DNA of 64,000 nucleotides. Source: Micropruina glycogenica (GTDB lineage Bacteria; Actinomycetota; Actinomycetes; Propionibacteriales; Propionibacteriaceae). Location of the stretch: assembly GCF_900289045.1 (NCBI RefSeq), contig NZ_LT985188.1:1736001-1800000 (forward strand). The letters are read 5' to 3'. Numbering within the stretch: the first letter of the stretch is position 1; each line of letters starts with the position of its first letter. The notes under the pieces are model-generated. The model did not search any database, was not told where the DNA came from, and was given only the letters and a program-made list of their open reading frames with translations. Positions 46,463-63,609 of this stretch are shown here, in pieces. Both the position numbers and the translations under genes were made by a program.

Positions 46463-46471
46463 CGTTCCACC

Positions 46472-46804: not shown

Positions 46805-46971
46805 GCCTTGGTCGACGGCGGAACCCGAAACTTGTCGCCTCACATCGACGATCGAGACTTGCACGACCTCAGTTAATCGAACGCACGGACCGCGGCTACG
46901 GTCGAGTTCTGATCCGGCCGCTGAACCCCGTCCTGATCGTCTGCGTGTTGGCCAGGCCAGTCGAATGGCGC

Positions 46972-47751: not shown

Positions 47752-47777
47752 GGAGGTTCAAGTCCTCTCTCGGACAC
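47752..47777 (+). other. attR core site
   Basis: 26-bp copy of the tRNA-Leu 3' end identical to 37312-37337. No tRNA is complete here. Confidence 0.92.
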
Positions 47778-47787
47778 GAGAACCAGA

Positions 47788-47826
47788 GGTCTCTGACTAG
47801 GTTAAAAGCCTAGACAGAGGCCTTTT
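47788..47826 (+). terminator. intrinsic terminator, probable original terminator of tRNA-Leu
   Basis: GGTCTCTGACTAGG (47788-47801) pairs with CCTAGACAGAGGCC (47809-47822) at 12 of 14 positions around a short A/T loop and is followed by TTTT. It lies just beyond attR, where the sequence downstream of the unoccupied tRNA would be. Confidence 0.8.
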
Positions 47827-47905
47827 GACATTTTCACCGTTGCGTCACGCGCGCCACGCGCCGAGCGCACGTGGAGTGCCAGCATTGCGATCAGAGGAGG
47901 CCATC

Positions 47906-48142
47906 GTGAGCACCCTGACCAGTCGACAGCTGGACGAACGCACCCACGCGCGCCTGCGTGGCAGAGCAGCGGAACACGGCCGCTCGGTTGAAGCCGAGGT
48001 TCGCGCGATTCTTGACGCCGCCGTCGGCCTGCCCGAACAGAACTTTCTACTCGCTCTGCACACAGCGATGGCCGAAGCCGGCGGGGTTGAGTTGGAGTTG
48101 CCGCCGCGAACCGAGTCAGCTCGAACCGTGGATCTGTCGTGA
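47906..48142 (+). CDS. FitA/VapB-type antitoxin
   Basis: GTG 47906 after GAGGAGG gives 78 residues: STLTSRQLDERTHARLRGRAAEHGRSVEAEVRAIL is a ribbon-helix-helix typical of FitA-like antitoxins. The C-terminus overlaps the PIN toxin start by 4 bp. Confidence 0.88.
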   Translation: MSTLTSRQLDERTHARLRGRAAEHGRSVEAEVRAILDAAVGLPEQNFLLALHTAMAEAGGVELELPPRTESARTVDLS

Positions 48143-48579
48143 TCATCGCTGACACCAACGTGGTGTCGGAGTTGATGAAACAGGCACCGGACGCCGCGGT
48201 TCTTGCCTGGGCGCGGAGACAGCCGGTCGCGGCCTTGTCGATCTGCGTCGTGACTGTCGAGGAGATTGAGCGCGGCCTCAGCCGACTTCCGCAGGGTAAA
48301 CGTCGTCGCGACCTGACCCAACGTTCGAACGGCCTCGTGGACGCCTTCGCCGACACGATCGCCATCTACGACGTGACAGCCGCCAGAACGACCGGCGCGA
48401 ATTCTGGTCGCCGGCGAGCAGCCGGGCGTCCGTTCAGCCTGGCGGACGCCCAGATCGCCGGCATCTGCCTCGCCGGAGGGCATGAACTAACGTCATCATC
48501 AACAAGATCACCGCCGCCCCGGTGCCGCTGGGTGGCAGGGTCAAGGTGGCACCCAATGTCTCGGGTGTCGGTGCGGTGA
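48139..48579 (+). CDS. PIN-domain toxin (FitB/VapC type) with replaced C-terminus
   Basis: Residues 1-119 are a normal PIN nuclease: IIADTNVVSEL (Asp), SICVVTVEEIERGL (Glu) and FSLADAQIAGICLAGGHEL (Asp). Family members then continue with a T-R-N-x-x-D-F block; here that is replaced by a low-complexity Ser/Pro/Arg tail read from a foreign sequence in another frame, starting about 48490. One conserved acidic residue is therefore missing and activity is doubtful. Confidence 0.8.
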   Translation: MIIADTNVVSELMKQAPDAAVLAWARRQPVAALSICVVTVEEIERGLSRLPQGKRRRDLTQRSNGLVDAFADTIAIYDVTAARTTGANSGRRRAAGRPFSLADAQIAGICLAGGHELTSSSTRSPPPRCRWVAGSRWHPMSRVSVR

Positions 48580-48983
48580 CGATCACCAGCAAGTACTTCA
48601 CCATCTGGAAGTCCTCAGGCACGAAGATCGTGAGCAAGAAGACGTCCGCCTGGCTGTCGGCCGGCAGCTACAAGGTGACGACCACGGTGACCTGGAAAGT
48701 GAAGAAGCGCAGCGGCGGCTACTACCCGTCGAAGACCACCACGCGCACCCAGCCCCTGGTCGTGGCAATCAGCACCGCCACCTGCGCCACCACGGACGAC
48801 GCCAAGCGGGTCAAGACCGGCGACTCCAAGACGGTCGTGTCATGGAAGCTGTACTCGGCCGGCAGCCTCGACTACGCCGACGGCAACCATGAGGACTGGC
48901 GCTACGCACTGTGCGGCAGCGACACCCAATGGGTCTGGGTCACCTACACCGACGGCACGGTCACCGACACCTGGGCGGAGTGA
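48486..48983 (+). pseudogene. 3' remnant of a secreted or surface protein gene
   Basis: An open frame with no proper start: VIINKITAAPVPLGGRVKVAPNVSG..., Lys/Thr/Tyr-rich beta-type sequence (GSYKVTTTVTWKVKKRSGGYY) ending in DGTVTDTWAE. It resembles the C-terminal repeats of extracellular Ig-like/PKD proteins. The 5' part is gone and the join lies inside the PIN gene. Confidence 0.7.
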
Positions 48984-49145
48984 GCGTAACGGCGACGAGC
49001 GCCATCGCCGCCACGACCGCCACAGTCAAGTCGCGCGGTGTGGCTGCACGTACCTGCACGTGTTCACGGCCGGTGACTGTTACGAGCGCGTCACTACTCC
49101 GCAAACGGCTAGTAGGCCGCCCGGGCCGGTCGCATAATCTCATCC

Positions 49146-49361
49146 ATGAGTGCAACCCGCGATCAAGAGGTGCTGGAGGACCTCAGCGATGAGGCCATCA
49201 TCGAGCAGGTGGTGGAACGTCTCTCGGTCACGCACCGCAGCGCCGACCCGCAAGACCTCGAAGCCCGCGTCAAGGCCGCTCCGGTGCCGTTCGCCGGGGC
49301 TCCGATTCGACACTTCCTGCCCGTGCTGCTCGAGCGTCGGGTCGCAGCACAGTTGAGCTGA
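49146..49361 (+). CDS. three-helix-bundle dimerisation domain protein
   Basis: 71 residues: EAIIEQVVERLSVTHRSADPQDLEARVKAAPVPFAGAPIRHFLPVLLERR. This short helical pattern is common in actinobacteria as an uncharacterised three-helix-bundle family. Convergent with the UPF0158 gene 6 bp away. Confidence 0.7.
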   Translation: MSATRDQEVLEDLSDEAIIEQVVERLSVTHRSADPQDLEARVKAAPVPFAGAPIRHFLPVLLERRVAAQLS

Positions 49362-49367
49362 ACCGGC

Positions 49368-49871
49368 TCAGCCGACCGAGTCGATCCCCTTCGGAACGGC
49401 GGCGTACCCCTCGCCGGCCAGCCATTCGCTGGCCCGTCCACGCAGTCGCTCGTCACTGAAGCCGTGCCACTGGGTCAAGCGCTCGTCCGAGCGCGCCAAA
49501 GCGTCGTGGAACCGGCGAAACGCTCCGCGGCCTTGAATCGCTGTGTCGAGGCGGTCGGCGAGGGGATCGCCCGCGATGTCGCCGATGAAGATCTGCATGT
49601 CGCGGTAGGCCTGCCTCGAACCCTCGCACGAGACGTAAAGCCATCGGTCGTCGTCTTCGTCTTCGTCGTCGTCCATGTCGTCGGAGTTCTCAAACACCAC
49701 CTCCGGCCACACCTCACCGGTGCGCAGTTCGATGCGTCCGCCGCCCTGCGTCATGTCACCCTCGAGCACCTCCGCGAGCTCGTCGAGGCCCACGGCGAGA
49801 GGACGAAGCGTCGAAGCCGGGCCCCAGCCGAACGCTCCGTCGAGCTGGTCGGCACATTCTGCTCGTTCCAC
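49368..49871 (-). CDS. UPF0158-family protein, probably 5'-shortened
   Basis: GTG 49871 gives 167 residues: [26 protein letters not shown], an acidic stretch ([12 protein letters not shown]), [21 protein letters not shown] and [38 protein letters not shown], which define UPF0158. It begins [13 protein letters not shown], a segment that in longer homologues is preceded by about 50 residues (compare the fragment at 58138-58374). Function unknown. Confidence 0.82.
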
Positions 49872-49964
49872 GTCCCAAGATTCACTGAAGTTATTGCTCG
49901 ACGGCCGGCGGGCCGGGCCGGCCGATGTTATTCTCGACCTGACCCGACAACACCGAGGTTGACC

Positions 49965-51308
49965 ATGGGCGTATCGATGTCTGACCAGCTACGACGTGCG
50001 ATTTCGGAACTGATGCCCGAGATCATCGACGAGTTGAAGGCGATGGTGGCGATTCCGTCCGTCGCGTTTCCGGCCTTTCCGTCCGAACCGGTGCTGGCGA
50101 TGGCCAACCGCGCCGTCGACGCGTTCGCCCGCTACGGCGTGAGCGCGCATCTCGAAGAGATTCCCGGGGGCTACCCGGCGGTCTGGGCCGAGATCGCCGG
50201 ACCACCGGGCGCACTTACTGTGCTGCTATACGGGCACTACGACGTGCAGCCGGCGCCGACCGAGGGCTGGCACAGCGACCCCTGGGTGCCCACCGAACGC
50301 GACGGACGCATCTTCGGCCGCGGTGCCGCCGACGACAAGTCGGGCATCGCGATTCACCTGGCTACCCTGGCCGCGTTCGAGGGCCGTCCGCCGGTGAACG
50401 TGAAGCTGGTGCTCGAGGGCGAGGAGGAGACGGTCTCGCACCTGGAGGCCTTCGTGGCCGCGCACCCCGAGCGGTTCGCGGCCGACGTGATGCTGATCGC
50501 CGACATGGGCAACCTGACCGTGGGCGAGCCGGTGCTGTCGGTGGGGCTGCGCGGCCACGTGAAGGCGATCGTCGAGGTCGAGACGCTGGACGACCCGGTG
50601 CATTCGGGGCTGTTCGGGGGCGCCGCGCCCGACGCCCTGATGGCGCTGATCAAGCTGCTCGCCAAGGTGTCGGACGACCACGGGTCGTCCGCCATTCCCG
50701 GCATCGGCAACTTCGAGTGGCAGGGCGCGGACTACAGCGAGCAGATGCTGCGGGCCAACGCCGGCGTGTTGGAAGGCGTCGACCTGGTCGGCTCGGGCCC
50801 GATCGCGTCGCGGCTGTGGAGCAGGCCGGCGATCTCGGTGCTGGGCATCGACGCACCGAGCGTCGACGAGGGCGGAAACGTGCTGCAGCCGCGGGCTCGC
50901 GCGGTGGTGGCGCTGCGCATTCCGCCTGGTCAAGACCCCGACGACGCGATGGGCAAGCTGGTCGCCTTCCTCGAACAGAACGTGCCCTGGCACGCGAAGG
51001 TCACGGTGACGCCCAACAAGAAGTCGCCCGCGTTCAGCCAGGGCACCGACGGCGTCGCGTTCGCGGCCATGCGCGAGGCGTTGGCCGAGGCGTACGGCAC
51101 CGATGTGGGCCAGGTCGGCTCGGGTGGGTCGATCCCGCTGCTGGACGAACTGCGCAAGGCCAGCCCCGCCGCCGACTTCGTGCTGATCGGGGCAGAGGAC
51201 GCCGAACTGTCGCGCATTCACGGGCCCAACGAGAGCGTCGACCCGTCCGAGATCGAGCACATGGCGCTGGCCCAGGCGCTGTTGCTTACCAAGCTCGGTC
51301 AGGGTTGA
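49965..51308 (+). CDS. M20-family dipeptidase
   Basis: ATG 49965 after GAGG gives 447 residues. Zinc motifs: [29 protein letters not shown] and EGEEETVS; C-terminal [10 protein letters not shown] and a metal His in RIHGPNESV. The CNDP/PepV-like dipeptidase branch, cytoplasmic. It starts 1 bp before the Dcu carrier stop-start (TGAG ATG) and is probably cotranscribed with it, which suggests feeding of amino acids such as aspartate to fumarate metabolism. Confidence 0.92.
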
Positions 51309-51309
51309 G

Positions 51310-52656
51310 ATGACCACCCTGCAGGTCGTCGTGCTGATCGCCGAGGCCCTGGTCGTCGTCGGCTCGATCTACCTGGGCGTGCGCACCGGCGGGGTCGGGC
51401 TCGGCCTGTGGGGTGCGGTCGGCGTGCTCGTGCTGGTGTTCGTGTTTCGCGCCCAGCCCGGCTCAATACCGTCCAGCGCGATTCTGATCATCATCGCGGT
51501 GATCACCGCCGCTGCGGCCATGCAGGCCGCCGGGGGCATCGACTACCTGGTCAGCGTGGCCGAAAAGCTGATTCGGTCTCAGCCGAAGCTGGTGAACTTT
51601 CTGGCCCCGCTCACCGCGCTGCTGTTCTGCGTCGCCGCCGGCACGGGCAACATCATCTTTCCGCTGCTGCCGGTGATCTACGAAGTGGCCTACGGGCGCG
51701 GCATCCGTCCAGAACGGGTGCTCGGCCCGGCGGTCGCGTCGTCGGGCGTGGCGCTGGCCGCCAGCCCGGTGTCGGCCGCCATGGCGGCCTTTCTCGGCCT
51801 CACCGCCAACGCCGACGGTGCACTCTCGCTCGGCCAGATCATCGTGATCACGCTGCCCGCGGTGATCGTCGGCACCCTGGTGTCGGCGCTGGTCTTCGTC
51901 AAGTGGGGCCCCGAGCTGGCCGACGATCCGGTCTACCAGGCCCGGCTGGCCGCCGGCGACCTGGACGCCCCGACGGCCGCCGAGAGCGGCGACACCCCGC
52001 TGCCCGAGCGGGCCAAGCCGGCGGCGCTGGTGTTTCTCGGCGGCGTGCTGCTGGTGGTGCTGCTGGGCGCGTTCGGCTCACTGCTGCCGAGCTGGCAGGT
52101 CGACGGCCAGACCGTCCGGCTCGACATGACCAGCCTGCTGATCATGGTGATGCTGGCAGTGGCGCTGGCGGTGATGCTGGTCGGTCGGATCAAGCCCGCC
52201 GACATACTGGACGCTCCGCTGACCAAGTCGGGGCTCACCGCGATCATCGCGCTGCTCGGCATCGCGTGGCTGGCCAACACGTTCATCGGCGCCAACAGCG
52301 ACTTCATCATCGGCGGCCTCAGCGACTTGACCGAGCACGCGCCGTGGTTCCTGGCCGTCGGGGTGTTCCTGGTCGCGGCGATGACCACCAGCCAGTCCGC
52401 GGCGGTGAACTCGATGATTCCGCTTGGTCTCGGCCTTGGCATTCCGGTCGGCTTTCTGGCCGCCTACCTGCCCGCGATGGGCGGCGTGATGACGCTGCCG
52501 GCCAACGGTTCGCAGCTGGCCGCGGTCGAGATCGACCGCACGGGCAGCACCAGAATCGGCAAGTACGTGGTGAACCACTCGTTCATCATTCCCACGGTGG
52601 TCAACGTGGTGGTGTCGGTGGTGGTGGCCATCGGCATCGCGTCGGTGGTGCGCTGA
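51310..52656 (+). CDS. anaerobic C4-dicarboxylate transporter (DcuA/DcuB type)
   Basis: 448 residues, about 10-12 membrane helices: GVGLGLWGAVGVLVLVFVF at the start, LTALLFCVAAGTGNIIFPLLPVIYEVAY, GVALAASPVSAAMAAFLGL and a C-terminal LPAMGGVMTLPANGSQLAAVEIDRTGSTRIGKYVVNHSF. Exchanges fumarate/aspartate for succinate in anaerobes, which fits a succinate-propionate fermentation and the downstream methylmalonyl-CoA decarboxylase. Confidence 0.93.
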   Translation: MTTLQVVVLIAEALVVVGSIYLGVRTGGVGLGLWGAVGVLVLVFVFRAQPGSIPSSAILIIIAVITAAAAMQAAGGIDYLVSVAEKLIRSQPKLVNFLAPLTALLFCVAAGTGNIIFPLLPVIYEVAYGRGIRPERVLGPAVASSGVALAASPVSAAMAAFLGLTANADGALSLGQIIVITLPAVIVGTLVSALVFVKWGPELADDPVYQARLAAGDLDAPTAAESGDTPLPERAKPAALVFLGGVLLVVLLGAFGSLLPSWQVDGQTVRLDMTSLLIMVMLAVALAVMLVGRIKPADILDAPLTKSGLTAIIALLGIAWLANTFIGANSDFIIGGLSDLTEHAPWFLAVGVFLVAAMTTSQSAAVNSMIPLGLGLGIPVGFLAAYLPAMGGVMTLPANGSQLAAVEIDRTGSTRIGKYVVNHSFIIPTVVNVVVSVVVAIGIASVVR

Positions 52657-52790
52657 TTTGGTTGGTCGAGCCTGTCGAGACCCATCGCGGTGGCGTTGGG
52701 AGATCCCGGCGTCCGCCGGGATGACGAAGGCCGGCGAGATGAGAAGGTCAGGCCTCTCTGACGGGGGCCGCCGGGATGACGAGAGCCGGG
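52657..52790. repeat. dispersed-repeat cluster after the Dcu gene
   Basis: TTGGTTGGTCGAGCCTGTCG...AGACCC (52658-52683) is a copy of the TCGACAAGCTCGACC family on the complement. GATCCCGGCGTCCGCCGGGA (52703-52722) followed by TGACGA is a REP hairpin, with a half copy near 52768. No gene. Confidence 0.8.
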
Positions 52791-52968
52791 TCAGTCGCGA
52801 GGCAAGCCGCCCACGCGGGTGATCAGGGCGTCGTACTGCCGATCGCTCAACACCTTGCGGACGGCGATCAGCGGCTTGGCGCCGAAGCCCACCGCGTAGC
52901 GCGTCTTGGGCCGCTCGGCGGTGACCGCCTTGGCGATGGCGTCGGCGATCACCGACGGCGGCGAGGCT
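52791..52968 (-). pseudogene. 3' remnant of a short-chain dehydrogenase gene
   Basis: On the minus strand VIADAIAKAVTAERPKTRYA continues VGFGAKPLIAVRKVLSDRQYDALITRVGG to a stop at 52791. This is the C-terminal end of SDRs of the PKTRYAVG type; the cofactor and catalytic parts are absent. It ends abruptly where the NRAMP remnant begins. Confidence 0.75.
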
Positions 52969-53662
52969 GATCCCGACGATTCCGGACGGCTCGATGACGG
53001 TCGTGATCGCGCTGATCGGTACCTGCCTGTCGGCCAACGCGGCGTTCTTCACCTCCTACGGCACCCAGGAGCGCAAGCGCACCGAGGCCGACTACCGCGA
53101 CATCACCGTGGTCGACACCATCCCCGGCATCGTCGCACCGGGTGTCATGACAGCCCTGGTCATCCTGGTCGCCGCCAAGGTCTTCAACGGCCCGCTCGGC
53201 CCCGAGGGCATGGTCGCCACCATCTCCGGCCTCTCGAAGGTGTTCGAGCCGGTGGCCGGCCCGGTCGGCAACTGGATCTTCGCGCTCGGCTACTTCGCCG
53301 CCGCCTTCTCGGCGATGACGGCGAACGCCACCGCCGGCGGCATCATGCTCTCCGACGCACTCGGCAAGGGCGCCTCGGCCAAGTCCCGAACCGCCCGCAT
53401 CTTCTCCGGCGTGATCCTGGTGTGGGGCATCGCGATCACCGCCATCTTCGGCGGCGGCTCGCCCGTCCAGCTGATCGTGCTCGCTCAGTCCCTGACCGTG
53501 CTGACCGCGCCGGTGTTGGCCTTCCTGCTGGTCTACCTGTCCGCCAAGGGTGACTTCATGGGCACCCTGCGCAACAAGTGGTGGCAGCTGGCCCTGGGTG
53601 CGATCGCCTTCGGCGTCGTGCTGTGGTTCTGGATTCAGCTGATCATCAGCTTCTTCCAGTGA
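52967..53662 (+). pseudogene. 3' half of an NRAMP-family metal ion transporter
   Basis: The frame begins LIPTIPDGSMTVVIALIGTC without a start codon for the full protein and continues for about 230 residues with 6-7 membrane helices, the C-terminal half of NRAMP/MntH-type carriers (normal about 410-440). The helix 1 metal-binding DPG motif is missing, so transport is unlikely even if translated from ATG 52994. Confidence 0.78.
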
Positions 53663-53722
53663 GATCGACGGCGAGGGTGCACGATCAATAGTGACCGTGC
53701 AGCACAGAACAGGACAGGACAC

Positions 53723-55267
53723 GTGAACGACAGGCTGAGCACGCTACGTGGCAAACGTGAAGCGGCCCTTTCCGGTGGTGGCCAGAAGCGGATCGACGCC
53801 CAGCACGCCAAGGGCAAGCTGACGGCCCGGGAGCGCCTCGCGATACTGCTCGACGAGGCGTCCTTTCAGGAACTCGGAGCGCTGGCCACCCACCAGACCA
53901 CCGACTTCGGCATGGCGAGCCAACGGTTCCCCGGCGACGGGGTGATCACTGGGTTCGGCAAGATCCAGGGCCGCCGGGTCGCCGTCTACGCCCAGGACTT
54001 CACCGTGCTGGGCGGATCGTTCTCAGAGGTGCAGTCGAACAAGATCAGTCGCATTCTCGATCTGGCCATCGAGGCCGGCATTCCGATGATCGGGTTGAAC
54101 GACTCCGGCGGTGCGCGCGTGCAAGAGGGCGTCCGCTCACTGGCCGCCTACGGCGAGGTGTTCGTGCGCAACGTGAAGGCGTCGGGGGTGATTCCGCAGA
54201 TCTCGCTGATTCTGGGCCCCTGCGCGGGTGGCGCCGTGTACAGCCCGGCGCTCACCGACGTCACGATCATGGTGGACGGCACGTCGAACATGTTCTTGAC
54301 CGGCCCCGACATCATCAAGACCGTCACCGGTGAGGACGTGTCGGCGGAGGAACTCGGCGGAGCGGCCGTGCACAACTCACTGTCGGGCGTGGCCCAGGTG
54401 ACCGCGACCAGCGATCAGCACGCGCTCAGCATCGCCAAGGAGCTGCTGAGTTACCTGCCGCAGAACAACGCCGAGGATCCGCCGGCGCTCGAGCCGTACG
54501 ACCCCGCCGACCGCATGGAAGAGGCCCTCAACACCATCGTTCCCGACGACGACGGCCTGGCCTACGACATGCGCGACGTGCTGGCCCTGGTGCTCGACCA
54601 CGATTCGGTCTTCGAGCTGCACAAGGACTACGCGGGCAACGCGCTGGTCGGTTTCGGACGACTGGACGGCCAATCGGTGGGCTTCATCGCCAACCAGCCG
54701 CTGGTGATGTCGGGCTGCCTCGACATCAACGCCTCCGACAAGATCGCCCGGCACATCACCCTGTGCGACCAGTTCAACATTCCGCTCATCACGTTCGTCG
54801 ACTGCCCCGGCTACCTGCCGGGCGTCGAACAGGAATACAACGGCGTGATCAGGCACGGCGCCAAGATCATCTACGCCTACTGCCAGGCCACCGTGCCCAA
54901 GATCTCACTGGTGACCCGCAAGGCCTACGGCGGCTCGTACGTGGCGCTCAGTTCGCGGCAGATGAACAACGACGTCGCCTTCGCCTGGCCCAGCGCACAG
55001 ATCGCGGTGATGGGCGCCGAGGGTGCCGCCCGGCTGCTCAACCGGCGGGCGATCATGGCAGCAGACGACCCCAAGGCCGAAGAAGCCAGGTTCATCGCCG
55101 ACTACAAGGAGAAGTTCTTCAACCCCTACCAGGCGGCCGACGTCGGCCAGATCGACGAAGTGATCGAGCCCCGCGAAACCCGGGCCCGGCTGGTGCGTTC
55201 GCTTGAGGTGCTGCGCACCAAGGTCACCCACTCGATTCCCAAGAAGCACGGACTCTTTCCGGTCTAG
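53723..55267 (+). CDS. mmdA: methylmalonyl-CoA decarboxylase alpha subunit (carboxyltransferase, 12S-like)
   Basis: 514-residue acyl-CoA carboxyltransferase: LTARERLAILLDEASF, LNDSGGARVQEGVRSLAAYGEVF (N-domain oxyanion hole), and the C-domain TFVDCPGYLPGVEQEYNGVIRHGAK and KAYGGSYVALSSR. Transfers CO2 from methylmalonyl-CoA to biotin. The three genes that follow make the assignment to the sodium-pumping decarboxylase rather than the soluble transcarboxylase. GTG start. Confidence 0.94.
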   Translation: MNDRLSTLRGKREAALSGGGQKRIDAQHAKGKLTARERLAILLDEASFQELGALATHQTTDFGMASQRFPGDGVITGFGKIQGRRVAVYAQDFTVLGGSFSEVQSNKISRILDLAIEAGIPMIGLNDSGGARVQEGVRSLAAYGEVFVRNVKASGVIPQISLILGPCAGGAVYSPALTDVTIMVDGTSNMFLTGPDIIKTVTGEDVSAEELGGAAVHNSLSGVAQVTATSDQHALSIAKELLSYLPQNNAEDPPALEPYDPADRMEEALNTIVPDDDGLAYDMRDVLALVLDHDSVFELHKDYAGNALVGFGRLDGQSVGFIANQPLVMSGCLDINASDKIARHITLCDQFNIPLITFVDCPGYLPGVEQEYNGVIRHGAKIIYAYCQATVPKISLVTRKAYGGSYVALSSRQMNNDVAFAWPSAQIAVMGAEGAARLLNRRAIMAADDPKAEEARFIADYKEKFFNPYQAADVGQIDEVIEPRETRARLVRSLEVLRTKVTHSIPKKHGLFPV

Positions 55268-55279
55268 AAGGCGACGAAC

Positions 55280-55678
55280 ATGTGGACTGATCTAGCCTGG
55301 GGGCTGCAGATGATGCTCGTCGGCATGGGCGCCGTGTTCGCCCTGCTGCTGTTGCTGATGGTGGTGCTGCGACTGACCGCACGACTCGACCGCACCGATC
55401 GCGACGGGGAGGCCGACCAACCGGGCGGCGAGCCCACCGCGGCGCCGATGACCGTTCAGACGGGGCCGGACGGCAGCACCCGGATCCTGGTGGACGACAC
55501 CGGCCTCGATGTGGACACGGTGGCGGCCATCGCGGTCGCGGTGATGACCCATGCCGAGCACCGCCGCCGGCTCGCCGGGCCCGAGGTGCGGGCCCACGCC
55601 CCAGGCAGCCAGCTGTTCGCCAGCCGGTGGGTGTCGGTCGGACGCACCCAGCAGACCCAACCATTCCGAAAGAGCTGA
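55280..55678 (+). CDS. OadG-family small subunit (delta) of the decarboxylase
   Basis: 132 residues: one N-terminal membrane helix (about 8-30, GLQMMLVGMGAVFALLLLLM), a charged linker, and a cytoplasmic part with VDTVAAIAVAVMTHAEHRRRL. OadG/MmdD subunits hold the decarboxylase complex together. 12 bp after mmdA and 3 bp before the biotin carrier gene. Confidence 0.85.
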   Translation: MWTDLAWGLQMMLVGMGAVFALLLLLMVVLRLTARLDRTDRDGEADQPGGEPTAAPMTVQTGPDGSTRILVDDTGLDVDTVAAIAVAVMTHAEHRRRLAGPEVRAHAPGSQLFASRWVSVGRTQQTQPFRKS

Positions 55679-55681
55679 ACG

Positions 55682-56215
55682 ATGCGTCGCTACACACTCA
55701 CCGTCAACGACTCCACCAAGGTCATCGAAATCGAGGCCGTCGAGGCGAACCTGTTTCGCGTTCAGATCGACGGACGCCTGGTCGACGTCACGCTGGAGGA
55801 TCACCGCGACCTGGCCCACTCGGCGATCACCCCGGCGATCACCCCGCGCGCCGTCGCGAGCGCCGGAGCGTCCGCCCTTGCCGCAGAGCCGGCACGGCAA
55901 CCGTCCGCAGCCGCCGTCGACACCACCTCAACCACCCGCCAGGCGTCCCCCCGGCCCGCTGAGACCTGCGCGGCCGCAGCGGCGGGCGGCGCAGGGCGCA
56001 GCAAGATGACCGCCCCGATGCCGGGCGTGATTCTCAGCATCGACGTCGCAGCAGGGGCCGGCGTGCACCGTGGCGACACCGTGATGGTGCTCGAGGCCAT
56101 GAAGATGAAGAACGAACTCAAAGCACCACGCGACGGACGGATCGCCGAGATCTATGTGGTGGCCGGCCAACAGGTCAAGTTCGGCGAGACGCTGATTCGC
56201 TTCGAGGAGAACTGA
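55682..56215 (+). CDS. mmdC: biotin carrier protein of methylmalonyl-CoA decarboxylase (gamma, 1.3S-like)
   Basis: 177 residues: N-terminal assembly region (RYTLTVNDSTKVIEIEAVE), an Ala/Pro/Thr-rich flexible linker (about 50-105), and a biotinyl domain with Lys141 in EAMKMKN. Carries CO2-biotin from MmdA to the membrane subunit. The linker is unusually long and Ala-rich. Confidence 0.95.
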   Translation: MRRYTLTVNDSTKVIEIEAVEANLFRVQIDGRLVDVTLEDHRDLAHSAITPAITPRAVASAGASALAAEPARQPSAAAVDTTSTTRQASPRPAETCAAAAAGGAGRSKMTAPMPGVILSIDVAAGAGVHRGDTVMVLEAMKMKNELKAPRDGRIAEIYVVAGQQVKFGETLIRFEEN

Positions 56216-56218
56216 GCG

Positions 56219-57340
56219 ATGAACGCCGACACCATGCACTACCTGCTGCAGGGGGTGCAGAACGTCACCTGGCAATCGCTCACCATGGTGGCGATCGGGC
56301 TGCTACTGATCTGGCTGGCCATCGTGAAAGAGTACGAGCCGCTGCTCCTGATTCCGATCGGCGCCGGGGCGGTGCTGGCCAACATGCCCCTGTCGCCGCT
56401 GGTCGGCCCCGAGGGTGCGCTCACCGTGCTGTACAACATGGGCGTCGCCAACGAGCTGTTCCCGCTGCTGATCTTCGTGGGCATCGGCGCGATGACCGAC
56501 TTCGGCCCCCTGCTAGAGAACCCGCGCATGGTGCTGCTCGGGGCGGCAGGACAGTTCGGCATCTTTCTCACCCTGATTCTGGCCCTGGTGCTCGGGTTCA
56601 GCCACAACCAGGCCGCCTCGATCGGCATCATCGGCGCCATCGACGGCCCGACGTCGATCTACGTGTCGAACAAGCTGGCTCCCGAGCTGGTCGCGCCGAT
56701 CACCGTGGCCGCCTACAGCTACATGTCGCTGGTGCCGATCATCATGCCGCCCATCATGCGGCTGCTCACCACCCGCAAAGAGCGGGCGATCCGCATGCCG
56801 TACAGCTCGCGCGAGATCAGCCAGCGCACCCGCATTCTGTTCCCCATCATCGTCACCATCGTGGTGGGCACCCTGGTGCCTTTCGCCACCCCGCTGATCG
56901 GCATGCTCATGCTGGGCAACCTGATGCGCGAGTCGAAGGTCGTCGAACGCCTGACCGGGGCGGCGTCCAACGAACTCGCCAACGTCGTGACGCTCTTCCT
57001 GGGCCTGGCCATCGGCGCCACCATGGTGGGCGAGAAGTTTCTGCAGCTCTCGACCCTGTTCATCCTCGCCCTGGGCCTGGTCGCGTTCTGCCTCGACACC
57101 GTGATGGGTGTGGTGTTCGGCAAGATCCTCAATGCCTTCAGCGGGGGCAAGTTCAACCCGTTGATCGGCGCCGCCGGCATCTCGGCCTTTCCCATGGCCG
57201 CCCGGGTTGTGCAGCGCGAAGCCCAGAAAGAGAACTTTGACAACTTCATTCTGATGCACGCCATGGGGGCCAACGCCGCCGGCCAGGTGGCGTCGGTGGT
57301 AGCCGGCGGTGTGCTGCTCGCCCTCATGGGTGCCGCGTGA
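56219..57340 (+). CDS. mmdB: sodium-pumping decarboxylase beta subunit
   Basis: 373 residues, about 9-11 membrane helices. The signature GIIGAIDGPTSIYVSNKLAP (about 137-156) contains the Asp essential for carboxybiotin decarboxylation and Na+ movement in OadB/MmdB; GNLMRESKVVERL (about 238-250) and AMGANAAGQVASVVAGGVLLA near the end are also conserved. Completes mmdA-oadG-mmdC-mmdB, 3 bp after mmdC. Confidence 0.95.
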   Translation: MNADTMHYLLQGVQNVTWQSLTMVAIGLLLIWLAIVKEYEPLLLIPIGAGAVLANMPLSPLVGPEGALTVLYNMGVANELFPLLIFVGIGAMTDFGPLLENPRMVLLGAAGQFGIFLTLILALVLGFSHNQAASIGIIGAIDGPTSIYVSNKLAPELVAPITVAAYSYMSLVPIIMPPIMRLLTTRKERAIRMPYSSREISQRTRILFPIIVTIVVGTLVPFATPLIGMLMLGNLMRESKVVERLTGAASNELANVVTLFLGLAIGATMVGEKFLQLSTLFILALGLVAFCLDTVMGVVFGKILNAFSGGKFNPLIGAAGISAFPMAARVVQREAQKENFDNFILMHAMGANAAGQVASVVAGGVLLALMGAA

Positions 57341-57579
57341 ACCTGTAGCGGCGCTCACGCAACCTGTCGAAACACCTGGCCAGAGGCCCGCCTGCGCCCC
57401 TGCTTGCGTCCCAACCGCACCACGCGCCGGCCAGGGTGGTGACGGCGGTACCTGTCTGCCTCTGCCCGGTGTGGCTAGCGTGACGAACGTGACGTTCTGC
57501 CGGACGGCTGCCTTCGCGTCGTCTCGGCAGGCGTTGGTGAGAACACGCCATCGCTACCACCAGAAGGGGCCCACGACTG
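57341..57579. other. intergenic region
   Basis: No gene or clear element seen. A GAAGGGGCC ribosome-site-like patch precedes the cupin start. Confidence 0.5.
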
Positions 57580-58006
57580 ATGCAACAACAACCCCCACCC
57601 GCCACCGGCAAGGGCAAAGCTGACTGGTTCATCGGCGACGTCCACGTCGACATGATCGTCGACCATCCCGATGCCCGATTCAGCGTCGGCTCGGTGCATT
57701 TCGCTCCTGGCTCGCGCAACGCCTGGCACTCCCACGCGGCCGGCCAGATGCTGCACTGCACCGACGGTGTCGGCCTGGTCGTCACCGACGACGACGTGAT
57801 CGTGCTGCGTCCGGGCGTGACGGTGTGGACGCCGCCCAACCAGCGACACTGGCACGGAGCAGCCCCCGATCGGCAGATGACGCACCTGGCCATGAGTGGC
57901 GTGGGTGGAGCTGGCCGAGGGCGAACCGGCCGCCACCTGGGGCGAACACATCAGCGAGGCCGACTACCTCGCGGCCGCACGCGCGATCACCGAGAACAAG
58001 GGCTGA
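57580..58006 (+). pseudogene. cupin-domain protein with a frameshift
   Basis: The first frame encodes a small cupin: FSVGSVHFAPGSRNAWHSHAAGQMLHCTDG, then VTVWTPPNQRHWHGAAPDRQMTHLAMS, with metal-binding histidines. At about 57895-57905 the family continuation (VELAEGEPAATWGEHISEADYLAA, ending 58006) lies in another frame. Either a true frameshift or a sequencing error. 58007-58137 holds only a short truncated frame (MSISAAARHNHDQLFVYQAV). Confidence 0.75.
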
Positions 58007-58137
58007 GTCGATGTCGATCAGTGCGGCGGCCCGGCACAACCACGATCAACTGTTCGTCTACCAGGCGGTCGCCTGGTCGATGCGTCCCCCGCCCGATGAC
58101 ATGTCACCTGTGAGCACCCCCGCGAGATCTTGAAGGC

Positions 58138-58374
58138 TCAGCGCGAGCCGACGAGGCGCAGGGCCGACGGCGGCCCCCACGCGAGAGCCGCGTCGATCTG
58201 GTCGGCCAGTTCGGCGTCGCCGCCCCAGTCACGCTCGCGTAACTCGGTGGCGCAGCGGCGTGCGGCCGGCTCGATCTGATGCGCCAGGCGGGCAGCCACC
58301 ACGAGCGCCGCCTCGCCGAGAAGCTGCAGGGCGTCAGCGGGCCACGTGGCGTCGGCAACCCGGCGCACGCCGGG
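58138..58374 (-). pseudogene. fragment resembling the N-terminal extension of UPF0158 proteins
   Basis: Minus-strand frame ADATWPADALQLLGEAALVV, then ARLAHQIEPAARRCATELRERDWGGDAELADQIDAALAWGPPSALRL to a stop. The last part parallels [21 protein letters not shown] at the start of the protein at 49368-49871. It has no start codon of its own; its 5' side runs into a REP hairpin (58359-58374) and the IS110 element. Confidence 0.6.
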
Positions 58375-58459
58375 ATCTCCACCGCCGCGTCTCGACAAGC
58401 TGTGAGAGTTGGTGGTGGCTGGCCTGGGGCTAGCTGGCAGGGTGGTGGGACCGGTTGTT

Positions 58460-58670
58460 CGTGTGCGGGTCGTGACCCTTCGACAAGCTGACCGTCCGCA
58501 ATTGTGCGGGGTGTCTTGGTCGAGATCTGTCCGGCTCGTGCACGGAGAACCGGCCGACCATCCCGGCCCACTCGTTGGCCTGATAGAAGCCCGTCCCACC
58601 GCTTTGGCGGGGTGACCGATCACAGTAACGCCACGGGTGACTCTTTCCCCGGGATGGCCGCGCCGGTTCG
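58460..58670 (+). ncRNA. predicted bridge RNA of the IS110 element
   Basis: Non-coding left end upstream of the transposase. TCGACAAGCT (58480-58489) is identical to the left half of the target including core CT; TGGTCGAG (58517-58524) is the reverse complement of core plus right half (CTCGACCA). Between them lies a stem CCGCA-ATTG-TGCGG (58496-58509), giving a guide-bearing loop. A second stem-loop (CCGC-TTTG-GCGG, 58599-58610) follows TAGAAGC (58584-58590), which repeats TAGAAGC of the element's right end (59785-59791), a candidate donor guide. RNA borders are approximate. Confidence 0.8.
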
Positions 58671-58716
58671 ACCGGCTCGATGCCCAACATCCCGAAAACA
58701 GGAGGCTCAGACACCG

Positions 58717-59787
58717 ATGGCCATCGTTGCAGATACCTACACCTATGTGGTGGGTGTGGACACCCACGCCGCCACTCATCATTACGCGATCGTGGAGACC
58801 CGTAGCGGCGGCCAGATCACCCACGGGAAGTTCCCCACCCATGCCGCGGGCTTGTTGCGGGCCGTGGATTGGATCAGCCGCCGCACCAGTGTTGACGACA
58901 ACCCAGCTGTCGACCAGGTGCTGATCAGCATGGAAGGCACCGGCAGTTACGGCGCCCAGGCAGCCGAGCTGCTCGCCGCACGCGGTTACCGGGTCGTCGA
59001 CGCACCCTCGCCGAAACGGGCTCGTGGCAGCGGCAAGAACGACCACATCGATGCCCTGGTCGCTGCCCGCGGCGCGTTACCCAAGGACAGCGAACGGCTC
59101 GCCGACCGACGCGCCGGCCATACCCGTGCCGCGCTGCAGATCCTGCTCACCGCCCGCGACAGCATGCGACGCGACCGGACCCGTTCCAAGAACCAGCTCA
59201 CCGCGCTGCTACGCACCCACAACCTCGACATCGATGCCCGCAAGGGAATCAACAAGGTCCACATCAGCCTCATTGCGGGCTGGCGCAAGCGGCCCACCGA
59301 CACCACCCTGGCCCGGATCGCCCGCACCGAAGCGCACCGCCTCGCCACCCGCATCCACACCCTGGACGCCGACCTCGACAGCAACGAGAAAGCCATCAAC
59401 GCCCTCGTGCGTGAACTCGAACCAACCCTGCTCGACCTGCCCGGCCTCGGACCCATCAACGCCGCCATTGTGCTCGCCGTCTGGTCTCACCCCGGCCGCA
59501 TCCATGACGAAGCCGGCTTCGCCAAGATCGGCGGCGTCTGCCCCCTGGAGATCTCCTCGGGCAACTCCAAGGATCATCGCCTCAACCGCACCGGCGACCG
59601 ACAACTCAACTCAGCCCTGAACTCCATCGCGAACACCCGCATGCGACACGACGAAACCACCAAGGCCTACGTCAAGAAACGCAAACAGCAAGGCCAAACC
59701 AAACCCCGAATCCGACGCTGCCTCAAGCGCTACATCGCCCGCCAAATCTTCCGACACCTCAACACGACCACCCTTGACAAGACATAG
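58717..59787 (+). CDS. IS110-family transposase (DEDD)
   Basis: ATG 58717 after AGGAGG gives 356 residues. RuvC-like N-domain: VVGVDTHAATHHYAIVE (Asp), ISMEGTGSYG (Glu), and GKNDHIDALVAARG (Asp-Asp). C-terminal Tnp domain: LDLPGLGPINAAIVLA helix-hairpin-helix and TGDRQLNSALNSIANTRM with the catalytic serine region, ending in a basic tail. Intact; acts with the bridge RNA. Confidence 0.94.
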   Translation: MAIVADTYTYVVGVDTHAATHHYAIVETRSGGQITHGKFPTHAAGLLRAVDWISRRTSVDDNPAVDQVLISMEGTGSYGAQAAELLAARGYRVVDAPSPKRARGSGKNDHIDALVAARGALPKDSERLADRRAGHTRAALQILLTARDSMRRDRTRSKNQLTALLRTHNLDIDARKGINKVHISLIAGWRKRPTDTTLARIARTEAHRLATRIHTLDADLDSNEKAINALVRELEPTLLDLPGLGPINAAIVLAVWSHPGRIHDEAGFAKIGGVCPLEISSGNSKDHRLNRTGDRQLNSALNSIANTRMRHDETTKAYVKKRKQQGQTKPRIRRCLKRYIARQIFRHLNTTTLDKT

Positions 59788-59861
59788 AAGCGTCTCGACC
59801 AGCGGACACCTCTTCTCGGCGAACGGCTGGGGTCTCACCGGGCGAGGACTAGGGTCGTTGC

Positions 59862-60728
59862 ATGGATTCTTACCACGTGGGCGAGCTGCCGGTACGACGC
59901 ATCGGCTTCGGCGCCATGCAACTGCCCGGTCCGGGGGTGATGGGCCCGCCCCGCGACCGCGACGAGGCCATCGCCGTGCTGCGCCGGGCGGTCGAACGCG
60001 GCGTCAACCACATCGACACCGCGCAGTACTACGGGCCGGACGTCAGCAACGAGCTGATCCGGGCGGCCCTGCACCCCTACCCCGACGACCTGGTGCTGGT
60101 GTCGAAGGTCGGTGCAGTGCGTGACGCAGCCGGTGGTTGGCCGCCCGCGCAGCGTCCGAACGAGTTGCGTGCCGGGGTCGAAGACAACCTGCGCACCCTC
60201 GGTGTCGAACGGTTGGGCGCGGTGAACCTGCGGCTGCTCGATCACGAGGTGTCGCCCGAACAGCAGGTGCCGCTGCAGGACCAGTTGGCCGAGATGGTCG
60301 CCCTGCGTGACGAGGGCAAGATCGCCGGCGTCGGCATCTCGACCGCCCACCACGAGCAGGTGCAGCAGGCGATCGAGCTCGCCCAGATCGTGTGCGTGCA
60401 GAACGCGTTCAGCCTGGTCGACACCTCAGACCGGGCGGTGCTCGAGCTGTGTCGAGACCAGGGCATCGCCTACGTGCCGTACTTTCCGCTCGGCTCGGCC
60501 TTTCCCGGCTTGCCGAAGGTCACCGAACAGCCGTCCGTACTGGCGGTGGCGCAGCGTCTCGGCGTGACCCCGGCCCAGGTCGGCCTGGCCTGGCTGTTGG
60601 CCCAGGCCGTGAACGTGCTGCTCATTCCCGGCACGTCACGGCTGTCGCACCTGGAGCAGAACCTCGCGGTCGCCGAGGTTCACCTCAGTGCGGAGGACCT
60701 GGCCGAGTTGTCGAGCCCCGCTGGTTGA
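59862..60728 (+). CDS. aldo/keto reductase
   Basis: 288 residues: IGFGAMQLPGPG, VNHIDTAQYYGPDVSNELIR (Asp, Tyr), LVSKVGAV (Lys), NLRLLDHEV, and cofactor-binding LLIPGTSRLSHLEQNL. A YdjG/AKR-like NADPH reductase of unknown substrate. Its stop codon TGA lies within a dispersed repeat copy (60719-60742). Confidence 0.9.
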   Translation: MDSYHVGELPVRRIGFGAMQLPGPGVMGPPRDRDEAIAVLRRAVERGVNHIDTAQYYGPDVSNELIRAALHPYPDDLVLVSKVGAVRDAAGGWPPAQRPNELRAGVEDNLRTLGVERLGAVNLRLLDHEVSPEQQVPLQDQLAEMVALRDEGKIAGVGISTAHHEQVQQAIELAQIVCVQNAFSLVDTSDRAVLELCRDQGIAYVPYFPLGSAFPGLPKVTEQPSVLAVAQRLGVTPAQVGLAWLLAQAVNVLLIPGTSRLSHLEQNLAVAEVHLSAEDLAELSSPAG

Positions 60729-60777
60729 GCTTGTCGAAACCCCTAGCCGCAACGGGTCTCGACAAGCTCGACCAGCG
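60719..60777. repeat. inverted pair of TCGACAAGCTCGACC-family repeats
   Basis: Copy 1 (60719-60742, CGCTGGTTGAGCTTGTCGAA) and copy 2 (60754-60777, TCTCGACAAGCTCGACCAGC within it) can form a 24-bp stem with two G-U-compatible mismatches and an 11-nt loop. The arrangement is like a paired REP element. Copy 2 equals the reconstructed IS110 target. Confidence 0.85.
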
Positions 60778-60791
60778 AAAACAGCGCTTCC

Positions 60792-61400
60792 TCAGTCGAA
60801 CACGTTCCAGCACAGTGCGTTGCGCTGCCGCTGGTCGACCAGCACCAGAGCGCGCACCTCATCGGGCAATTGTTCGCGCTGCCAGCGGCACTCAGCGCGT
60901 CCGGCAGCCTCGGCGTCGGCCGGCGCGACGGAAGCCCGGACGGCTTTGATCGCGTACGCCGCCGCCCCCAGATCGTGCGCCGCCACGTGCGCCACGCACG
61001 ACGCCTGCGCTGCGGCGTAGGCGGCGAAGCGGGGGGCTCCGGTCAGGTCACGAGCGGCTCCCATTGCGTGGCCGCCCAACGCTCGCGTGGTCATCATGCC
61101 GAGTTCGCCGCGGGCCCAGGCCCGACCCCCCTCGATCGCCTCTCTTGGACGGCGGTCCTCGGGCCGAACCGCCTCGAACAACCCCAACACGTGCTCGGCG
61201 CAATGGGCCGCCCACAGCGCCAGCAGGTGGTGATCGGCGTCGCTCAGCGTGCCGCCCCGACGCACCGTGACCAGGTGCGGGTCGGCCACCGACGGCAGAA
61301 TCACCGCAGAACCCCAACTGTTGCCGACACCCGTGCCCGACCCCTCTTCGCCCGTGACGCCTGGGTGCCCATGGTGCCACCGGCCGATCACCAGGCGCAT
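60792..61400 (-). CDS. putative immunity-protein-like (Imm-5-like) protein
   Basis: 202 residues from ATG 61400: LALWAAHCAEHVLGLFEAVRPEDRRPREAIEGGRAWARGE, then GHAMGAARDLTGAPRFAAYAAAQASCVAHVAAHDLGAAAYAIKAVRA, an all-helical domain found in proteins named putative immunity proteins. A start at 61445 would overlap the divergent gene. No toxin partner is adjacent, so a real immunity role is not established. Confidence 0.75.
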   Translation of the reverse strand: MRLVIGRWHHGHPGVTGEEGSGTGVGNSWGSAVILPSVADPHLVTVRRGGTLSDADHHLLALWAAHCAEHVLGLFEAVRPEDRRPREAIEGGRAWARGELGMMTTRALGGHAMGAARDLTGAPRFAAYAAAQASCVAHVAAHDLGAAAYAIKAVRASVAPADAEAAGRAECRWQREQLPDEVRALVLVDQRQRNALCWNVFD

Positions 61401-61439
61401 TCGGTTTCTCGATCGACGCGCGGCCAGCAGAATGGGGCG

Positions 61440-62168
61440 ATGCAACTGCGTGCGGGCACGATTCGCGTCGGCGTCGTCGCCGCCGTCGTGCTGGTGCTGC
61501 TGGGCGCCGCATCGGCCACCCCCTGGGTGGTCACGCTGTCGCTGCCGGACATCGATCCCGACGCCGAGATGCCGTCGCCCGAGCCGCGGGTCAGCGGCAC
61601 CCCCGACGCGGTGTTACCGCCCGACCAGTTCCCCACCATTGCTCTCGGCAGTTGGGTGACGCCCACGCTGATCGTGCTGGCGATCAGCATCGTGGCCTAC
61701 CTGACCTACCGGGTGATCCGGCGGCTGCGCAACGCCTGGCGCCCGACCGACGAGCCGGTGCCGGCCGACCGAATGGCCCAGGGCACGGTGCTCGCCGGGG
61801 TACCGGTCGTCGACCTCGAAGCGCTGGTCAACGCGGTGCAACGGGCCGAGGCGCAACTGGCCGGCATCACCGAACCCGGCGACGCGGTGGTTGCGGCGTG
61901 GGTGGCGCTCGAGCACGAAGCGTCGCTGCAGGGCGCCGCGCGTGGGCCCGCGCAGACCAGCACCGAGTTCACCACCGACCTGCTCGCCGCCACCCCCGCG
62001 CCACCCGAGGCCGTCGTCACGCTCCGCGGCCTCTACCAGCGGGCCCGGTTCACCCGGCGTCCGGTGAGTGCGGCCGACGTCGACGCGGCCCGCACCGCGC
62101 TGGCCGCCATCGCCGCCGCCCTCGACGCCGCCGCGCCGGCCGAACCCACCCCCGAGGGCCGGCCGTGA
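61440..62168 (+). CDS. DUF4129-domain membrane protein
   Basis: 242 residues: signal-anchor helix (about 8-32), short exterior loop, a second helix (about 75-95), and a cytoplasmic C-terminal DUF4129 region (VVAAWVALEHEASLQG, TSTEFTTDLLAA, LRGLYQRARFT). First gene of a DUF4129-membrane protein-MoxR-DUF58 operon; overlaps the next gene by 4 bp. Confidence 0.87.
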   Translation: MQLRAGTIRVGVVAAVVLVLLGAASATPWVVTLSLPDIDPDAEMPSPEPRVSGTPDAVLPPDQFPTIALGSWVTPTLIVLAISIVAYLTYRVIRRLRNAWRPTDEPVPADRMAQGTVLAGVPVVDLEALVNAVQRAEAQLAGITEPGDAVVAAWVALEHEASLQGAARGPAQTSTEFTTDLLAATPAPPEAVVTLRGLYQRARFTRRPVSAADVDAARTALAAIAAALDAAAPAEPTPEGRP

Positions 62169-62638
62169 CCGGCAAGGCTCTGGTGCTGCGCGTGGTGGGC
62201 AGCGTCGCGCTCGGCACCGTGCTGGCCATCACCGGCGTTCTGGACGCCACCCACGCGGCCCTGCTCGCCCTGCTGCTGCTCGCCGCGCTGCTGCTGAGCG
62301 CCCGGATGATCGACGACTACGAACCCGTCTGGCCCGCTCGGCAGAGCCCGATGCGGGCCGGCGGCCGCGCCGTGGTGAGCGACCTCTCGTGGCAGGTGTT
62401 CGACCACAGCCGGCGGGTGGACGCCGCCGTCGCCGACCGTGTGCACCGCCTCGCGGTCGCCCGGCTGGCCGTGCTGGGCATCGACGCCACCGACCCCGCG
62501 CAATGGCCGGAGGTCGAACGGCGACTGGGCCCCGCGATCGCGTCCGGCCTGGCCCACGACGAGCGCCCCACGGCGCGCACCCTGCAACTCTGGCTCGACG
62601 CGATCGACCGGCTGAGCGACGAAAGGACCACGCGATGA
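62165..62638 (+). CDS. membrane protein of the MoxR operon
   Basis: 157 residues, GTG start: two adjacent hydrophobic segments (about 8-25 and 28-45), then a soluble helical part (FDHSRRVDAAVADRVHRLAVARL). Such a gene between DUF4129 and MoxR is usual in actinobacteria; function unknown. Overlaps moxR by 4 bp. Confidence 0.75.
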   Translation: MTGKALVLRVVGSVALGTVLAITGVLDATHAALLALLLLAALLLSARMIDDYEPVWPARQSPMRAGGRAVVSDLSWQVFDHSRRVDAAVADRVHRLAVARLAVLGIDATDPAQWPEVERRLGPAIASGLAHDERPTARTLQLWLDAIDRLSDERTTR

Positions 62639-63609
62639 CGCACGACCCCCTCACTGTTGCCGAGGTGGCTCGACTCGGCGACGCGATTCTGGCCGAGGTC
62701 GGCACCGCGGTGGTGGGCATGGACGACCCGCTGCGCATCGCCCTGGCCACCGTGCTGGCCGGTGGCCACGTGTTGTTCGAAGATGTGCCGGGCACCGGCA
62801 AGACCCTGGCCGCCCGCAGCCTCGCCACCACCCTGGGCCTCGATTTCGCCAGGCTGCAATGCACCCCCGACCTGCTGCCCAGCGACGTCACCGGGTCGAG
62901 CGTGTGGGATCCGGAGCGCCGTGATTTCGTGTTTCGGCCCGGCCCGGTGTTCACCGGCCTGTTCCTGGCCGACGAAATCAACCGCACCGCCCCCAAGACC
63001 CAATCGGCGCTCCTCGAAGCGATGGCCGAACGGCAGGTCACCGTCGAGGGCGTCAGCCGTGCGCTGCCGCAACCGTTTCACGTGATGGCGACCTCGAACC
63101 CCGTCGAGTACGAGGGCACCTACCCGTTGCCTGAAGCCCAACTCGACCGGTTCATGGTGCGGCTCGCGGTCGGCTACCCCACCGGCGCCGGCGAGCGCGA
63201 GGTGCTCACCCGGCGAATCGCCCGGCAGCAGGAGGCTGCGCCGGTGCGTCAGGTAGTCGAGGCGAGCACCGTGCTGGCCATGCAGGGCGGCGTCGAAGCC
63301 CTTGACGTCGACCCCGACGTGGTCGGCTACTGCGTCGACCTGGTGGCCGCGACCCGCAACCATCCGGCGCTCGAGGTCGGCGCTTCGCCGCGTGGTTCGC
63401 AGAACCTGATGCTGCTGGCCCGTGCCGTCGCCGTGCTCGAGGGCCGCGAACTGGTGCTGCCCGAAGACGTCAAGCAGGTCGCGGTGCCGGTGTTGGCCCA
63501 CCGGCTGACCCTGACCGCGACGTCGTGGGCGTCCGGGCGCCGCCCCGAAGATGTGGTCACCGGGCTACTGGCCTCGGTGCCGACGCCGTCCACCGTTCGG
63601 CAGGGCTGA
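62635..63609 (+). CDS. MoxR-family AAA+ ATPase
   Basis: 324 residues: Walker A EDVPGTGKT (about 49-57), Walker B LFLADEINRTAPKTQSALLEAMAER (about 104-128), sensor 1 ATSNPVEYEGTYPLPEAQLDRF and a C-terminal lid with SPRGSQNLMLLARA. A chaperone-like ATPase that with DUF58 (and often VWA) partners matures or inserts cofactors in client proteins. TGATG coupling to the DUF58 gene. Confidence 0.93.
   Translation: MTHDPLTVAEVARLGDAILAEVGTAVVGMDDPLRIALATVLAGGHVLFEDVPGTGKTLAARSLATTLGLDFARLQCTPDLLPSDVTGSSVWDPERRDFVFRPGPVFTGLFLADEINRTAPKTQSALLEAMAERQVTVEGVSRALPQPFHVMATSNPVEYEGTYPLPEAQLDRFMVRLAVGYPTGAGEREVLTRRIARQQEAAPVRQVVEASTVLAMQGGVEALDVDPDVVGYCVDLVAATRNHPALEVGASPRGSQNLMLLARAVAVLEGRELVLPEDVKQVAVPVLAHRLTLTATSWASGRRPEDVVTGLLASVPTPSTVRQG

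Follow-up and report, generated by a model that had tools for sequence, protein, structure and literature searches.

The operon described here lies in a 64,000-nucleotide stretch of the Micropruina glycogenica chromosome (NZ_LT985188.1, positions 1,736,001 to 1,800,000 of the forward strand; hereafter the window) and resembles several systems described previously. Methylmalonyl-CoA decarboxylases are known from Propionigenium modestum, where the genes follow the order mmdADCB, and from Veillonella, whose enzyme has an additional subunit, MmdE. To judge by the title of their work, a Na+-type ATP synthase of P. modestum was reportedly described by Laubinger and Dimroth in 1988. The propionibacterial transcarboxylase, made up of 12S, 5S and 1.3S subunits, is soluble and pumps no Na+.

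Among propionibacteria related to M. glycogenica, P. acidipropionici was found to have and to transcribe a Na+-pumping methylmalonyl-CoA decarboxylase, and the parts of that report available to us also mention a complete Wood-Werkman cycle and call transcarboxylase a defining trait (PMC7650540). A pump of the kind studied here, likened by its description rather than by its sequence, is therefore already in print for that species. In the literature searched, no other title concerned this pump in Propionibacteriaceae, although a mention inside a paper is possible. The closed genome of strain Lg2 of M. glycogenica, a species from sewage sludge (3.84 Mbp, 68.3% G+C), has been the subject of a paper (PMC5974061) in whose main text the words "decarboxylase" and "transcarboxylase" do not occur.

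The decarboxylase operon and the transcarboxylase operon

Four open reading frames (ORFs) of the + strand lie head to tail at 53723-57340 of the window, with intergenic gaps of 12, 3 and 3 bases (Table 1). They encode a 12S-like carboxyltransferase subunit (MmdA), an OadG-type protein (MmdD), a biotin carrier (MmdC) and an OadB-type membrane subunit (MmdB), i.e., the subunit set A, D, C, B of the P. modestum and Veillonella decarboxylases; unlike in Veillonella, no ORF for MmdE was found inside the gaps. The curated Pfam cut-offs were exceeded by all four proteins, and MmdB, whose gene is the sole OAD_beta match in the genome (one contig of 3,844,677 bases), was the only one above a curated NCBIfam cut-off (TIGR01109, 451.6 bits vs 190.6). 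The preliminary description of this stretch had already recognized the four genes as one tight operon, and as a decarboxylase operon of the Na+-pump type in an actinobacterium; ORF layout and Pfam matches confirm this, and the operon is intact by sequence. It is probable, from these sequences, that the four genes specify a complete Na+-translocating methylmalonyl-CoA decarboxylase of the biotin-dependent type, which would provide a second exit from methylmalonyl-CoA beside the soluble transcarboxylase, one that conserves energy. MmdA would transfer the carboxyl group of methylmalonyl-CoA to the biotin carried by MmdC, MmdB would decarboxylate carboxybiotin in the membrane with export of Na+, and MmdD would keep the complex together.

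The membrane subunit retains the residues expected of a Na+ pump. MmdB was aligned to Salmonella OadB (6iva/6iww) with an E-value of 1.7e-105, and OadB residues D203, S382 and N412 correspond to identical residues at positions 142, 322 and 352. Changing D203 or S382 to alanine abolished Na+ binding, the effect at N412 being milder, according to the parts of that study available to us (PMC7274780). The three equivalents were kept in 100 of 100 MmdB-like rows (94 distinct), obtained from 101 loci, window included, with L125 yielding no row. The Na+-binding residues are thus common to the window operon and OadABG, whereas the carboxyltransferase of the former is of the 12S/propionyl-CoA carboxylase (PCC) type, not of the 5S/OadA type, and its biotin carrier is a separate gene. 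MmdD combines an N-terminal hydrophobic helix, seen by eye, with a conserved C-terminal region, and it matched the OadG chain of 6iva weakly (E 0.14). The subunit order was A-D-C-B in all 62 loci where the four subunits were extractable; in the other 38 of the 100 MmdB loci at least one subunit was not extracted, many due to contig ends, and one of these, L123, showed the order B-A-D-C. In comparisons with three relatives, the ratio of nonsynonymous to synonymous substitution rates (dN/dS) was 0.11-0.15 for mmdA, 0.15-0.16 for mmdB and 0.30-0.53 for mmdD; for mmdC, compared with two relatives, it was 0.29-0.37. Purifying selection acts on mmdA and mmdB, and a decay of MmdB is unsupported, because the Na+-site residues are kept and dN/dS is low.

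Transcarboxylase genes coexist with this operon. The PYC_OADA model had two matches genome-wide, at 3.16 and 3.65 Mb, both outside the window (1.736-1.800 Mb). The match at 3.65 Mb is a 508-codon frame encoding a 498-aa 5S protein, which scored 963 bits against the cut-off of 827 of the equivalog model NF008984. Next in line come 12S (521 aa), a small ORF and 1.3S (119 aa, with EAMKMETE). The other match is a pyruvate-carboxylase-like frame of 1281 codons with PYC_OADA and biotinyl domains. The transcarboxylase operon lies about 1.86 Mb from the pump operon on the same chromosome, and each comes with a 12S-like subunit and a biotin carrier of its own; the pump operon, unlike transcarboxylase, has no 5S subunit. 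The earlier statement that no 5S gene lies nearby consequently holds for the window and fails for the genome, and the contrast drawn there with transcarboxylase-using propionibacteria falls with the full operon found in the same genome. A 5S protein drawing on the 12S/1.3S pair of the window, together with loss of MmdB function, had also been considered; 5S has its own partners, and MmdB shows no decay. It is hardly credible that the pump replaces transcarboxylase in M. glycogenica, as the lack of a 5S gene in the window could suggest, since the genome has a complete operon of 5S, 12S, small ORF and 1.3S, with 5S above its equivalog cut-off.

Transcarboxylase requires pyruvate as acceptor, the carboxyl group going back to oxaloacetate, whereas the pump could convert methylmalonyl-CoA, formed from succinate or from the oxaloacetate of other carboxylases, into propionyl-CoA and CO2 and build up a Na+ gradient across the membrane in doing so. 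A testable question is raised in this way, namely what decides whether the carboxyl group is returned to pyruvate or spent on a Na+ gradient. When each route would be used, like the substrate, the direction and Na+ as the ion, is what we infer from the genes.

Substrate, direction and coupling ion

The label "methylmalonyl-CoA" is based on operon content and genome context, because the NCBIfam models for MmdA, MmdD and MmdC all remained under their cut-offs: MmdD reached 30.2 with TIGR01195 (cut-off 36.05) and MmdC 83.8 with the MmdC equivalog NF047903 (cut-off 200). Several observations weigh against the proposed function. The top NCBIfam match of MmdA, TIGR01117, scored 727.5 bits, under a cut-off of 998.8 which the genome's own transcarboxylase 12S also missed (764.7). 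Identity of MmdA is 53% with the PCC-beta-like protein of the same genome and 52% with 12S, and its best matches in the PDB are PCC beta chains. Since no model separates MmdA from PCC beta, another acyl-CoA substrate is possible. Finally, the M. glycogenica genome paper, in the parts available to us, found propionate only in smaller fractions, and this gives no hint of a main route under the condition used there.

A different CoA ester, e.g., malonyl-, ethylmalonyl- or glutaconyl-CoA, would accommodate the fact that no family model pins the substrate and that MmdA is about equally near to PCC beta and 12S. This alternative appears improbable, however, as glutaconyl-CoA decarboxylase alpha chains gave at most 90 bits with MmdA in the PDB, far under PCC beta (632 bits) and 12S (582), while the mmdADCB content and the methylmalonyl-CoA mutase genes (three matches in the genome, two of them adjacent) fit methylmalonyl-CoA.

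The complex might also work mainly in reverse, the Na+ gradient driving an ATP-free carboxylation of propionyl-CoA or another acyl-CoA for propionate assimilation. Reversal of such a pump has been published, reportedly by Dimroth and Hilpert in 1984, to judge by the title. The capacity of M. glycogenica for aerobic respiration, and a report of aerobic propionate use by strain Lg2, both mentioned in the parts of the genome paper available to us (PMC5974061), are in line with such a use. By contrast, the same parts of that paper state that Micropruina cells took up no propionate in situ, and a carboxyltransferase gene is already present next to a frame of 601 codons that has a biotinyl domain; by eye, the two form a beta/alpha pair of the PCC type. 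We regard a mainly reversed complex as unlikely, and retain decarboxylation as the probable direction.

As for the ion, the use of the gradient would differ from that in P. modestum. Na+-type ATP synthase c-subunits have a Gln and a Glu-Ser/Thr pair. The sole c-subunit found in the genome reads ...GIGVAMVFAAVINGTARQPEARGALLSTAWIGFAVVEALAIIG..., lacks both features and has a carboxylate site of the H+ type, unlike the Na+-type ATP synthase of P. modestum. A Na+-type ATP synthase, for which the preliminary description had proposed to look, is thus unsupported; of the Na+-coupled transporters also proposed there, two SSF-family symporter genes were found, but Rnf and Nqr had no match in the genome. 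With an ATP synthase that looks H+-coupled, Na+ symport and exchange for H+ are the probable uses of the gradient.

Distribution and history of the pump

The survey covered 198 Propionibacteriaceae genomes from 29 genera, with a limit of E 1e-120 for 5S; in draft genomes, a 5S gene split across contigs may fall short of that limit. OAD_beta exceeded its cut-off in 52 genomes (53 with one weak match), with matches in 12 genera, and 5S was found in 149 genomes. Both were present in 45 of the 52 OAD_beta genomes, and in 33 of 35 at a completeness of at least 95%. The pump is therefore a patchy family trait, usually additional to transcarboxylase, which corrects the picture of a pump instead of transcarboxylase. 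A Fisher test of pump against 5S in the family gave p 0.04 without correction for kinship and was not used as evidence of linkage. Replacement of transcarboxylase finds some support in the seven OAD_beta genomes without a 5S match (G130, G131, G144, G147, G183, G195 and G197), as two of them, G130 and G183, are 99% complete drafts. These two, G183 (locus L124) and G130, are candidates for a real replacement in their own lineages. Among 394 genomes sampled across the class, the M. glycogenica genome alone exceeded the OAD_beta cut-off; named loci with a pump subunit include Austwickia and a Micrococcales bin.

The MmdB tree comprised 94 rows, 6 duplicates having been taken out, and was built by a quick method, with support from the Shimodaira-Hasegawa-like approximate likelihood ratio test (SH-aLRT) only, without bootstrap. 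A branch with SH-aLRT 97 had the 23 rows labeled Actinomycetes together on the same side, with Betaproteobacteria (Propionivibrio, Accumulibacter) and Chloroflexia (Chloroflexus) as neighbors. The divergent family rows L116 and L123 fell on long branches outside the Actinomycetes group. These two loci (in genomes G072 and G159, respectively) have another gene order or other partners, and possibly encode other decarboxylases. The tree does not decide the direction of a transfer between phyla; a pump pre-dating transcarboxylase has been suggested (McCubbin). Composition gave no sign of a recent foreign origin, the G+C content being 65-71% for the operon genes, 68.6% for the window and 66-68% for the 5S and 12S genes.

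Within the family, pump and transcarboxylase trees were compared for 15 genomes, drawn from 20 pump loci plus the window and kept if the four proteins were available for both trees. Left out were G033, which lacked a transcarboxylase stretch, G183, which had no 5S match, the cut loci of G153 and G195, and, on the author's judgment of their divergent gene surroundings, G072 and G159. The broad outlines agreed (distance rank correlation 0.75). In the pump tree, however, a single clade of the three same-genus operons was rejected (approximately unbiased test, p 1.8e-6), while the transcarboxylase tree held the three genomes together with weak support (78/67). A clade of M. glycogenica (G000) and G111 alone was not rejected (p 0.146). 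G112 is a draft with a completeness of 89% and a contamination of 6%, so that its operon contig could be foreign. The strong DNA match of the window to the siblings G111 and G112 covered 53.7-57.3 kb, i.e., the operon alone among the matches listed. Taken together, the operon is likely to be mobile within the family. Over the last 300 residues of the G111 protein, MmdB shows no difference from that of L008, from the Micropruina sp. isolate SSC1.

The small transcarboxylase gene and the flanks of the pump operon

The M. glycogenica transcarboxylase operon was compared with 20 others (L126-L145), hand-picked from the 149 genomes with 5S. All 21 had the order 5S, 12S, small ORF, 1.3S, the ORF having 71 to 104 codons, and a 12S stop codon was present in every one. 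BLAST with the M. glycogenica ORF and a motif scan found 20 small ORFs each, and that of L145, missed by both, was recognized by eye. Relative to 12S, the frame was 0 in five, 1 in five and 2 in ten of the 20 scanned operons, the start in L142 being uncertain. The P. freudenreichii genome paper, in the parts available to us, counted four coding sequences in this operon and took the one at this position, PFREUD_18850, for the C-terminal portion of 12S; in the Swiss-Prot entry of another strain the piece is joined to 12S, a difference taken there as strain-dependent (PMC2909200). This joined entry speaks against the small ORF being a separate subunit.

Propionibacterial transcarboxylase resembles the pump in having a 12S-like subunit and a biotin carrier with a small protein gene between them, and differs from it by the presence of 5S and the absence of MmdB. 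In a comparison of profiles, the second half of 20 small proteins aligned with the C-terminal half of 46 MmdD proteins. The match was weak (score 23.3, single-comparison E 0.0021, HH-suite probability 13.5%), although none of 200 column shuffles reached that score (best 20.3) and the reversed profile gave 12.2. With L145 added, the score was 25.3 (E 0.00094, probability 22%), the shuffles referring to the 20-protein set. NCBIfam, Pfam and the PDB gave no convincing match to the small protein, so that its tie to MmdD comes from profile comparison alone, and the resemblance is suggestive. Where MmdD has its membrane helix, the small protein has by eye a coiled-coil-looking segment. We tentatively put forward, as a serious possibility, that transcarboxylase is a rebuilt decarboxylase pump with an overlooked fourth subunit: its gene order would be the A-D-C of the pump, plus 5S and minus MmdB, and the small product may act as a soluble subunit that docks the biotin carrier to the carboxyltransferase. 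No title naming a fourth transcarboxylase subunit was found in the literature searched, mostly by title. If the small-gene product were found in the complex, the accepted three-subunit picture would change.

Table 1. Position and sequence characteristics of the genes discussed (window coordinates unless stated otherwise).
Feature	Coordinates	Strand	Characteristics
mmdA, carboxyltransferase (12S-like) subunit	53723..55267	+	514 aa, GTG start; PF01039 Carboxyl_trans 618 bits; V after AYGGSY (D in the PCC-beta-like protein, I in 12S)
mmdD, OadG-type	55280..55678	+	132 aa; PF04277 OAD_gamma 46 bits (cut-off 27)
mmdC, biotin carrier	55682..56215	+	177 aa; PF00364 Biotin_lipoyl 60 bits; biotin site EAMKMKNE
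mmdB, OadB-type membrane subunit	56219..57340	+	373 aa; PF03977 OAD_beta 508 bits
Small ORF of the transcarboxylase operon	L101 6417-6683; genome about 3,654,416-3,654,682		88 aa; between 12S and 1.3S
M20-family dipeptidase-like protein	49464..51308	+	PF01546, PF07687; NF005914 over cut-off
DcuA/DcuB-type C4-dicarboxylate carrier	51310..52656	+	PF03605 384 bits; NF006927, TIGR00770 over cut-off
Nramp-family 3' remnant	52994..53662	+	222 aa; PF01566 105 bits, model positions 160-356 of 357
IS110-family insertion element	58389..59805	+	transposase ORF 58504-59787; PF01548/PF02371, NF033542 over cut-off

The surroundings of the pump vary between genomes. In P. acidipropionici it shares its location with an ADP-dependent acetyl-CoA synthetase, as stated in the parts of the report available to us (PMC7650540), whereas in M. 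glycogenica its neighbors are the Nramp remnant, the Dcu carrier, the dipeptidase and an aldo/keto reductase, with a cupin protein and an IS110 element downstream. The preliminary description had assigned the carrier and the dipeptidase to the same fermentation. Among 80 named related loci, many of them incomplete and the full ones extending about 2.5-3.5 kb upstream of mmdA, a Dcu-like gene occurred in one (L035, Rhodoferax, 36%), an M20-like gene in one (L062, 34%), and no Nramp-like gene within the stretches covered; none of the three lay beside the operon in a second, partly overlapping set of 39 loci. None of the three is a conserved neighbor, and the carrier and the dipeptidase were rejected as operon partners. 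The link between Dcu and succinate is attractive, and it is position alone that ties the carrier to the operon.

The truncated Nramp gene directly upstream of mmdA, whose N-terminal half was not seen by eye in the three + frames upstream, is a sign of rearrangement at the edge of the operon. Beside it, on the minus strand at 52791-52991, a frame resembles by eye the C-terminal tail of a short-chain dehydrogenase. A search for regulatory RNAs gave no Rfam match at the gathering threshold in window 44000-64000. At least 11 further near-identical copies of the IS110 element occur in the chromosome, suggesting a recent spread, and short dispersed repeats at 60718-60800 and 52650-52797 had many matches in this and in sibling genomes.

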